Of a DNA stretch of 64,000 nt, positions 37,979-40,109 are shown in pieces. The translations under genes and the position numbers were made by a program. Under the pieces are notes generated by a model. That model did no database searches. It was not told the origin of the DNA and saw only the letters and a program-made list of their open reading frames with translations. Source of the stretch: Spiribacter sp. 2438 (lineage in GTDB: Bacteria > Pseudomonadota > Gammaproteobacteria > Nitrococcales > Nitrococcaceae); assembly GCF_009676705.1 (NCBI RefSeq), contig NZ_CP046046.1, positions 496,001 through 560,000 of the forward strand, read 5' to 3'. The number at the start of each line of letters is the position of its first letter. Position 1 is the first letter of the stretch.

Positions 37979-38060
37979 ACGCCGGGGCGCTCCTTGGTCG
38001 GCTTTTGTCTTTATCACTGCGTCTGCTACCTTCTACCGGAATTAAGGAAGGGCATTTGCA

Positions 38061-38516
38061 ATGGAAAATTCTAAAAACAACGATTTGATTGTTGGTGACG
38101 GTGTCAAAATCGTCGGCGAAGTCGATGCACCCGGTAAGCTTGAGCTGCATGGTAGGATTGAGGGCAGCATCCGGGGTGATGACATCAAAGTGGGATCCAC
38201 TGGTGTCGTCGAAGGCAGCCTTCACGGGAACAACGTTGACTTACAGGGTAGCGTCAGCGAGCAGGTCACCGCGCAGACGCTGATCCTCAGGTCCACAGCA
38301 GTTGTCAGCGGGTCAGTGCAATATCAGTCCGTCGAGATCGAGTCTGGCGCCGAAATAAACGGTACGTTGAGCAGTAGCAAGGAAAAGTCGGGGTTCCATG
38401 GAATGGGCAAGGGCGAGAAGTCAAAACCAATGAATTTGCCGGACCGGATCGTGCAGAAGGACGAGCCGGACGCCGACAGCGAGGCCAGGGACGATGCCGA
38501 ATCGCCGGAGAAGTGA
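38061..38516 (+). CDS. Bactofilin (first copy)
   Basis: A 151-residue polymer-forming cytoskeletal protein. The beta-helix core (about residues 8-105) consists of short repeats such as KIVGEVDAPGKLELHGRIEGSI and SVSEQVTAQTLILRSTAVVSGSV; N- and C-termini are polar and disordered, the tail rich in K, D and E. The first part of the gene is visibly AT-richer than its neighbours (AAA, ATT and TTG codons). It overlaps the M23 peptidase gene by 23 nt, so the two are coupled. Confidence 0.9.
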   Translation: MENSKNNDLIVGDGVKIVGEVDAPGKLELHGRIEGSIRGDDIKVGSTGVVEGSLHGNNVDLQGSVSEQVTAQTLILRSTAVVSGSVQYQSVEIESGAEINGTLSSSKEKSGFHGMGKGEKSKPMNLPDRIVQKDEPDADSEARDDAESPEK

Positions 38517-39600
38517 TTACCCGGCGGCTCCGCCGTGGCTGCATCAGCTAAGGGACAGTCTGCCCGCGGGCGAACCCGGAGAAGTTGTTATCCCAACTCG
38601 GGATGGCGTCGCCCACCTGACAGTGTCCCGACAGGACGTGGATGAAATGCTCGTCGCCCAGCAGAGAGTGCTGGGGCGGCAGAAATTCCGGTTTAGTCTC
38701 GTTGTTGGTGTCATCTCGGCATGCCTGGTGGGGTTCATCGGCTACAGCCAGGACCTGGGGCAGCAAAAGATGCGTCTGTCAGATGAATTGGCCACGGCAC
38801 AGGCCGATGCATCTGAGCTGAATTCGGCCTTGGATGAGATGTTTTCCACGGCCCGTGGTGTCGCCTCAGGTGTTGCAGCGCCCGAGTTGGACACGCCTCT
38901 TGAAGGCCTTCAAACCGTTGGGACGCTGCTCGAGGATTTAGACGAGGCATTCACGGTTTACACTGATATCACCCGCCAGGCGGTTTCAAGGTACCAGGAG
39001 GATCTCAGCCTGGATTTGGCAGCGCTGGACGTTGACTCATCATTCATTCTGCAAAGCGAGACCGTTAACCCGGTTTCTTGGGGTGGGGGTGTATCGGGCG
39101 CCGACGCCCCGGGCCGACTCCTGGCGACCTACCTTCCGGGGGATCTCGCGCGAGCCCTTCGTGCCGTGTCGGTGAAAGAGGGGTATCGCTCCACCCTGCC
39201 CGATCTGAATCCGATGCAAGGGGGCCGCATGACCTCCGGCTTCGGCATGCGCAAGCACCCGGTCACGGGACAGTATGTCGCACACCGGGGTGTCGACCTG
39301 GTTTCCTGGGACGATCAGCGGGTTCGCTCCGCTGGCGAGGGGCGTGTTGTGTTCGCTGACTATGACGGTGCCTCCGGAAATCGGGTGACCATTGATCATG
39401 GTTTCGGGATCGAGACGATTTATGCCCATCTGGCGCGCATTGACGTGGAAGAAGGGCAGTGGGTGAAGCGTGGGGAATGGATTGGGTTGATGGGGGATAC
39501 TGGGTTAACCGACGGCGCCCACCTGCACTACGAGGTGAGGCTGGACGATCGGCACGTCGATCCCCTTGAGGTTTTTAGAGTGGCCAGAGATGTTCAATAA
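38494..39600 (+). CDS. Membrane-anchored M23 (LytM) peptidoglycan endopeptidase
   Basis: A 368-residue protein: cytoplasmic Arg/Pro-rich N-terminus (1-64), one transmembrane helix (about 66-85), coiled coil (about 88-120), and a C-terminal M23 domain from about residue 245. The zinc ligands are complete: H-RGV-D in AHRGVDLV and HLHYEV, so it should be an active enzyme cutting peptide cross-links. It lies between two bactofilin genes and overlaps both, which points to a bactofilin-guided cell-shape or localised wall-cutting role. Confidence 0.92.
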   Translation: MPNRRRSDYPAAPPWLHQLRDSLPAGEPGEVVIPTRDGVAHLTVSRQDVDEMLVAQQRVLGRQKFRFSLVVGVISACLVGFIGYSQDLGQQKMRLSDELATAQADASELNSALDEMFSTARGVASGVAAPELDTPLEGLQTVGTLLEDLDEAFTVYTDITRQAVSRYQEDLSLDLAALDVDSSFILQSETVNPVSWGGGVSGADAPGRLLATYLPGDLARALRAVSVKEGYRSTLPDLNPMQGGRMTSGFGMRKHPVTGQYVAHRGVDLVSWDDQRVRSAGEGRVVFADYDGASGNRVTIDHGFGIETIYAHLARIDVEEGQWVKRGEWIGLMGDTGLTDGAHLHYEVRLDDRHVDPLEVFRVARDVQ

Positions 39601-39994
39601 AGATAAAAAAGCAGGTCCTGTGGTGGAACACGTCGACGGTGTGAGCGAATCGGGTAATTGGTCGGACCGAAATGTGTCGCCGATGGGCCGCCCCTCGGTC
39701 ATCAGCGAAGGGATGTGGTTCAAAGGCGAAGTGAATTGCCCGGGGTCACTCAATCTGGAGGGGAGAATCGAGGGAAAACTGGACGCACCGCAGGTCAGCA
39801 TCGGCGCGACGGGCAGTTTTTCCGGCGATCTGAAGGCAACGAGTGTTTCGCTGAGCGGCGAGGTAGAGGGCACCCTGACTTGTGACGATCTCACGTTGAG
39901 CCACACTGGACGCATCAAGGGTGAGGTCGTGTGCAAAACCCTCAAAGTCCACCCGGGCGCCATTCTGGAGGGAGACCTACGGATGCAGTCGTAG
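39590..39994 (+). CDS. Bactofilin (second copy)
   Basis: A 134-residue bactofilin with the core repeats MWFKGEVNCPGSLNLEGRIEG, KLDAPQVSIGATGSFSGDL and VEGTLTCDDLTLSHTGRIKGEV. N-terminus is polar (FNKDKKAG) with no membrane segment. The ATG at 39590 lies inside the last codons of the M23 gene (11-nt overlap); an earlier ATG at 39566 is possible. It differs clearly from the first bactofilin, so this is not a recent duplication. Confidence 0.9.
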   Translation: MFNKDKKAGPVVEHVDGVSESGNWSDRNVSPMGRPSVISEGMWFKGEVNCPGSLNLEGRIEGKLDAPQVSIGATGSFSGDLKATSVSLSGEVEGTLTCDDLTLSHTGRIKGEVVCKTLKVHPGAILEGDLRMQS

Positions 39995-40022
39995 GACCGA
40001 CATGATGACCCAATGGAGCGGA

Positions 40023-40109
40023 TGGTGCCGAGGAGAGGACTTGAACCTCCACGGGGTTACCCCCACTAGCACCTGAAGCTAGCGCGTCTACCAATTCCGC
40101 CACCTCGGC
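40023..40109 (-). tRNA. tRNA-Leu (anticodon CAG)
   Basis: An 87-nt class II tRNA with CCA encoded. Acceptor GCCGAGG; D-arm with TGGTAGAC; anticodon stem CTAGC/GCTAG with loop TTCAGGT, anticodon CAG; a long variable arm (TGGGGGTAACCCC); T-loop GTTCAAGTC. It reads CUG, which is the dominant Leu codon in this GC-rich window. Promoter at 40148-40176. Confidence 0.97.

Follow-up and report, generated by a model that had tools for sequence, protein, structure and literature searches.

Our analyses of a 64,000-nucleotide stretch of the Spiribacter sp. 2438 genome (hereafter, the window) point to a compact wall-remodelling unit that elaborates on the known LmdC-BacA operon. It would consist of a scaffold anchored by one bactofilin (BacB), a second bactofilin (BacA) and an M23 endopeptidase docked on this scaffold by its cytoplasmic tail, a reading that we consider probable, although with modest confidence. 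The window belongs to a genome assembled as a single contig of 1,900,931 bases (G000 in our samples), and its interval 38061-39994 is filled by three co-directional open reading frames. The module and its right border comprise the following features:

38061..38516, + strand: bactofilin A (bacA, A-type, 151 aa), Pfam PF04519, E 2.5e-20, 73 bits
38494..39600, + strand: bitopic M23 endopeptidase (368 aa), Pfam PF01551, E 2.9e-29
39590..39994, + strand: bactofilin B (bacB, B-type, 134 aa), Pfam PF04519, E 6e-23, 81.4 bits
38494..38516, + strand: bacA/M23 overlap, 23 nt
39590..39600, + strand: M23/bacB overlap, 11 nt
40023..40109, - strand: tRNA-Leu(CAG), bounding on the right the variable slot occupied by the module, purA-(insert)-tRNA-Leu-rnr

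An initial annotation of this DNA had already described a bactofilin, an M23 enzyme and a second, divergent bactofilin with overlapping genes. On re-reading the sequence, we recovered the same three frames and the same overlaps; all three proteins score above their Pfam cut-offs (27.9 bits, the curated value, for PF04519) and the two bactofilins share 30% identity (pairwise within the alignment). Chance open reading frames were rejected because of these scores and of the conservation of the triad. The mechanical frame of bacB starts at TTG 39566, which produces a 35-nt overlap with the M23 gene; we rejected this start and retained ATG 39590 because it yields an MF-K start and the 11-nt overlap common to the related loci. 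Promoter-like and terminator-like sites were near chance in our scans (three against a chance mean of 1.4, and three against a mean of 3.6, respectively). The promoter scan found no promoter-like site directly 5' of bacA, and a terminator-like hairpin at 37981-37998, in the purA-bacA gap, was at chance level in the terminator scan. The G+C content of 38061-39994 is 58.5%, compared with 64.7% for the whole window, and 0.3% of windows of equal length are as low. The idea that this low G+C proves a foreign origin was dropped, since the triad of G011, another member of the genus, matches its flank (0.638 versus 0.634).

In addition to their divergence, the two bactofilins present an asymmetry that the initial annotation had not described: B carries a predicted membrane-targeting start and A does not. 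Such peptides are common in bactofilins without being universal, and bactofilin polymerisation is nucleotide-independent. BacB begins with MFNKDKK, which is similar to MFSKKKK, the published membrane-targeting consensus for which the accessible text of PMC12448750 describes a hydrophobic residue 2 and lysines as required. BacA begins with MENSKNND, has a net charge of -11 and a C-terminal tail of low pLDDT, and no membrane-targeting start was found by motif rule in its N-terminus (MENSKNN). Scored by a simple ad hoc rule, not a published one, such starts occur in none of nine A-types and in six of nine B-types; among the B-types, those of G014 site 2 and of G017 lack the initial MF, and that of G011 starts with MW. 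The net charge of the A-types ranges from -6 to -16 in eight of the nine and is +2 in the other, and that of the B-types from -9 to +4. The right-handed beta-helix core is found in both bactofilins, in BacA by model and in BacB by sequence match. The core of the BacA AlphaFold model has a pLDDT of about 95 and aligns with 6rib, 2n3d and 6ria with TMt 0.87-0.89 and probability 1.00, but with Foldseek E values of 0.011-0.016, no Foldseek match of this model reaching 0.001 or better. BacB matches 6ria and 2n3d by sequence with E about 1e-8. All nine A-type bactofilins group in a single clade (support 100/95), with support of 98 against 48 other rows in a quick tree to which the 23 top-scoring other bactofilins of the class had been added. 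In agreement with this, an A-type profile run on 370 genomes of the class scored 163 bits in G000 and 161 and 144 bits on two proteins of G112, and the other matches listed, the window BacB included, scored about 78 bits or less. The ancestry of the B-types is less sharply drawn: the careful tree requires two changes and does not reject a single clade (p-AU 0.456), and in the quick tree they fall on one side (91) only if 16 other rows are disregarded.

The M23 protein comprises a cytoplasmic tail (residues 1-64), a transmembrane segment (65-83), a helical region and the M23 domain (264-357). Hydropathy analysis revealed a single hydrophobic segment, at residues 65-83, in keeping with the membrane anchor previously proposed. 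Zinc ligands of M23 enzymes follow an HxxxD/HxH pattern, and the residues H264, D268, H312, H343 and H345, which we take to be the metal ligands, do not vary in any of the nine rows of the alignment, one of which is the window protein. With its ligands intact, the enzyme may fairly be called apparently active, as had been suggested. Its structure model is poor (mean pLDDT 59.6), with helices at 46-124 and 135-177 predicted at low confidence and, in the tail, a helix at 14-22 and a strand-turn-strand at 29-44 suggested at block pLDDT values of 70-81. No NCBIfam model among the 14 listed, which we checked for MepM, ShyA, NlpD, EnvC and DipM equivalogs, reached its cut-off, the best score being that of MepM (96.5 bits versus a cut-off of 341). 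The ten M23 proteins of triad type form one clade (100/99), in which the site 2 proteins are one clade (100/98) and those of site 1 are not.

The closest known system is the LmdC-BacA operon of Hyphomonas neptunium and Rhodospirillum rubrum, where, in the accessible text of PMC10945521, a bitopic M23 protein is encoded beside a bactofilin. The layout described there is matched here: a cytoplasmic tail, a transmembrane segment, a helical region and a periplasmic M23 domain, encoded by a gene that overlaps that of the bactofilin (by 17 bp in LmdC-BacA and by 11 nt for Spiribacter M23/bacB). Several other M23-bactofilin pairs in our samples also overlap by 11 or 17 nt. According to the same text, bactofilin and M23 genes are neighbours in 226 species, a peptide of the LmdC tail binds BacA directly with an apparent KD of about 15 uM, and LmdC depletion causes shape defects very similar to those of bacA loss. 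By contrast, the operon as described contains one bactofilin, whereas in Spiribacter a second, acidic bactofilin lacking the membrane-targeting motif is encoded upstream. The tails also differ in length (64 residues in Spiribacter, 38 in LmdC) and their homology is not demonstrable. Comparison by hhalign of triad and LmdC-type tails gave probabilities of 19.7% for the tails of alpha-type pairs, 0.6% for those of gamma-type pairs and 39.1% for both pooled, over 16-18 residues. An HMM of LmdC-type tails placed four of ten triad tails above the 95% shuffle level, compared with three of 50 tails of unlinked M23 proteins, but its top score came from an unlinked tail (9.0 bits, versus 3.8 for the best triad tail); in the reverse comparison, 5 of 12 pair tails passed, versus 7 of 50 unlinked ones. 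Some unlinked M23 proteins possess a similar-looking tail. The M23-bacB half of the module has the known LmdC-BacA layout, and the upstream A-type is the new part.

Other multi-component systems provide further points of comparison. Helicobacter pylori CcmA-Csd1/Csd2 also combines a bactofilin and M23 proteins in a membrane-spanning shape complex, but the description in the accessible text of PMC10945521 sets it apart by its one bactofilin and other Csd partners. Several bactofilins, as in Spiribacter, occur in H. neptunium, whose BacA and BacD copolymerise when co-expressed in E. coli (PMC10945521, accessible text), and in Myxococcus, where BacNOP are inferred to form one heteropolymeric scaffold (PMC5703909, accessible text). 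Different bactofilins can share a polymer, but these texts do not describe the extra bactofilins around an M23 gene, unlike the arrangement found in Spiribacter. Our search for literature combining Spiribacter and bactofilin returned nothing, and no bac-M23-bac triad was found in the accessible text of PMC10945521, PMC12448750, PMC13393453 and PMC5703909; the 226-species table, which lies outside that text, may list triads. In our own samples, the nearest arrangement is that of G084, from the same order, in which two bactofilins and one M23 protein are likewise encoded in tandem (L121:5415-7158) but in the order M23-bactofilin-bactofilin and with both bactofilins outside the A clade.

The genus sample comprised 14 genomes and the family sample 23; G014 (1,739,487 bases) is presumed to be Spiribacter salinus M19-40, G009 (1,926,631 bases) Spiribacter sp. 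UAH-SP71 and G013 S. salilacus C176, and G011, G015 and G017 are presumed MAGs. Bactofilin matches were found in 6 of the 14 genus genomes (3 of the 9 at least 90% complete) and in 9 of the 23 family genomes, and all six bactofilin-bearing genus genomes have the triad or parts of it. No bactofilin match was found in the other 8 of 14, G009 included (6 of 9 at a completeness of at least 90%), and triad-type M23 was found neither in these eight nor in the 40 genomes searched from the rest of the order.

The triads of the genus lie at two sites. Site 1 reads purA - triad - tRNA-Leu - rnr, with full context in G000 and G014; in G013 the three genes lie beside purA, with no tRNA-Leu or rnr within the 15 kb read, and in G015 M23-bacB lies on a short contig, flanked by genes that match the neighbours in G013. 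Site 2 adjoins a histidine kinase and response regulator pair and holds all three genes in G014 and G011; in G015 it contains bacA-M23, cut by the contig end. In G017, site 2 is divided between two contig ends, one with M23-bacB and the other with bacA and the M23 start, fragments that we have taken as one locus. Full triads on one contig occur at six loci (G000, both sites of G014, G013, G011 and G112), the others being partial. The A-type gene, doubled in G112, adjoins a triad-type M23 gene in eight of the nine loci with a readable upstream side, the sole exception being the second site of G000. There, the M23 gene (L057:4200-5243, at about 188 kb) has no adjacent bactofilin, and the trio is therefore separable. 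A B-like bactofilin gene lies at L057:15750-16421 (about 200 kb), about 10.5 kb from the site-2 M23 gene, as would result from the splitting of a second triad.

In the window, the slot extends over 37979-40022, between purA and tRNA-Leu(CAG). Judging from its occupancy, site 1 looks like a variable slot in which the triad was gained or from which it was lost, because it is empty or otherwise filled in relatives. In G009, G011 and the other-genus G008, G001 and G022, the purA-rnr interval contains tRNA-Leu with gaps of about 320 nt or less, which leaves no room for a triad. The slot of G021 is occupied by an alanine dehydrogenase gene and that of G010 by a glutamate decarboxylase gene, which the slot open reading frame of G012 resembles by eye. 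Triad-bearing and triad-free genomes are intermixed in a purA tree from which G015 is absent and whose deep branches are weak. In G014, the bacB frame (L060:7539-7973) extends 54 nt antisense into the tRNA-Leu gene, the last BacB residues being encoded opposite tRNA-Leu.

Outside the genus, we searched order, class, phylum and family sets that overlap and that, except for the order and the families, are samples. At 1e-45, the M23 profile found matches in six genomes out of the 54 in the order, all within the genus. Among the 370 class genomes, full-length matches occurred only in G000 and G112 (488, 465 and 357 bits), the next match reaching 150 bits over the domain only. In the phylum (397 genomes), the best score apart from G000 was 161 bits, and in the 14 other genomes with matches the alignment never reached the N-terminal tail. 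G112 (1,995,095 bases; same class, other order) encodes ftsK - lolA - A - A' - M23 - B at L120:6696-9037, with an 11-nt M23/B overlap as in Spiribacter. Within its family, triad-type M23 occurs in 1 of 47 genomes, G112 itself, and in none of its 46 relatives. G112 was also the only one with triad-like spacing among 67 class genomes with at least two bactofilins, which were chosen by eye and their coordinates read, a procedure that contig-split pairs would escape; G113 has a tandem bactofilin pair and G338 a divergent one. A narrow scan of named contigs, using two peptide patterns, retrieved 27 loci, five of which matched beyond the M23 domain, each beside a bactofilin and each from S. salilacus or MAGs of the genus; the other 22 had no bactofilin in the flank read. 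The neighbourhood comparison recommended by the initial annotation thus recovered the A-M23-B order in the distant G112 and, within the genus, at two sites. Since the triad is kept in all these places, A-M23-B is, as far as gene order and sequence can tell, a module rather than a cluster formed by chance.

The M23/bacB overlap measures 11 nt in all eight loci with both genes on one contig, the bacB start having been chosen by comparison in four of them (G000, G014 site 1, G017 and G112) and mechanically in the other four. The bacA/M23 spacing is variable: the eight readable loci show overlaps of 23, 17, 17, 17, 8 and 8 nt and gaps of 3 and 27 nt. The earlier statement that these overlaps force co-translation was too strong. 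A Shine-Dalgarno-like AGGTG lies 7 nt 5' of bacB in six of eight loci, being degenerate in the window (GAGTGG) and in G014 site 1, which suggests that bacB translation may begin independently; the conservation of AGGTG may also stem from the protein, as the same bases code for the M23 C-terminus. NG86 dN/dS ratios were 0.05-0.32 in five of six gene pairs, rough values given a dS of 1.2-3.5, near or past saturation, with no dS for the BacA pair G013-G014; the bacA value (0.22) comes from one pair only.

These data bear on several competing explanations. A chance or decaying gene cluster devoid of joint function might seem to agree with the low G+C of the interval, the patchy presence of the triad and the lack of a bactofilin beside the second-site M23 gene of G000. 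This is very improbable, as there is one gene order, one origin for the A-types and one for the M23 proteins, with an 11-nt overlap maintained at both sites and in two lineages far apart, and dN/dS values well under 1. It is also conceivable, although unlikely in our opinion, that only the M23-BacB half cooperates, as an ordinary LmdC-BacA pair, and that BacA has a separate job or is a spare duplicate. An M23 gene with a single downstream bactofilin is indeed common, 17 of 42 M23 loci having one bactofilin within the flank read (best-scoring class and phylum matches, G000 and G112 excluded), and the bacA/M23 spacing is not constant, ranging between a 23-nt overlap and a 27-nt gap. However, a spare or independently working BacA fits poorly with the adjacency of A-types to triad M23 genes in eight of nine readable loci, with their forming a clade of their own whose profile scores find no equal among the matches listed in 370 genomes, and with the single dN/dS estimate for bacA.

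The compact unit that we favour might, in turn, serve another purpose than curvature, by acting in division, in chromosome positioning or in keeping the envelope strong under salt stress, a tentative possibility that is compatible with the molecular part of our explanation. Spiribacter is halophilic, G009 lacks any bactofilin match, bactofilins organise ParABS in Myxococcus (PMC5703909, accessible text), and a helical gammaproteobacterium has been reported without csd or ccmA genes (PMC6956133, accessible text). On the other side, a partner of the M23 family speaks for a wall function, and where the accessible texts describe bactofilins together with M23 enzymes, the subject is shape or wall growth. 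A role in motility is unlikely and a flagellar one was rejected, as two Spiribacter genomes are reported to lack motility in the accessible text of PMC3832224.

The initial annotation had gone further and proposed that a mixed filament of both bactofilins might set cell shape, for example the spiral form. Spiribacter cells are curved or spiral, and Spiribacter sp. UAH-SP71 is presumably the later S. curvatus. The link of the module to spiral form is nonetheless weak, because 8 of 14 genus genomes, G009 included, have no bactofilin match; in the Spiribacter literature, including the accessible text of PMC3832224 and PMC5818414, we found no useful wording on cell form. A mixed A/B filament is plausible by analogy, since bactofilin copolymers are known elsewhere.

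From these comparisons we infer a model in which BacB would bind the inner membrane via its N-terminal MFNKDKK and polymerise into a bactofilin scaffold, which the acidic BacA, with the same beta-helix and no membrane peptide, would join, layer on or cap by direct contact. The M23 protein would span the membrane and dock on this scaffold through its 64-residue cytoplasmic tail, its periplasmic domain cutting peptide cross-links locally and thereby changing local wall growth or curvature. In a bolder extension, which we regard as doubtful, the A-types would be a distinct subfamily without membrane-targeting start, dedicated to the triad, and would supply a two-component scaffold with its second strand or its cap; the A:B ratio would set membrane affinity and M23 loading, and the triad would be a shape cassette transferable between lineages and sites, gained or lost within one genus.

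How the composition of a scaffold controls a wall enzyme, and why multiple bactofilins are maintained in many bacteria, are open questions. The Spiribacter triad brings two scaffold types and an enzyme together in one minimal unit, and the genus offers a natural comparison between G014, presumed to be S. salinus M19-40, with two triads and four bactofilins, and G009, without a bactofilin match.
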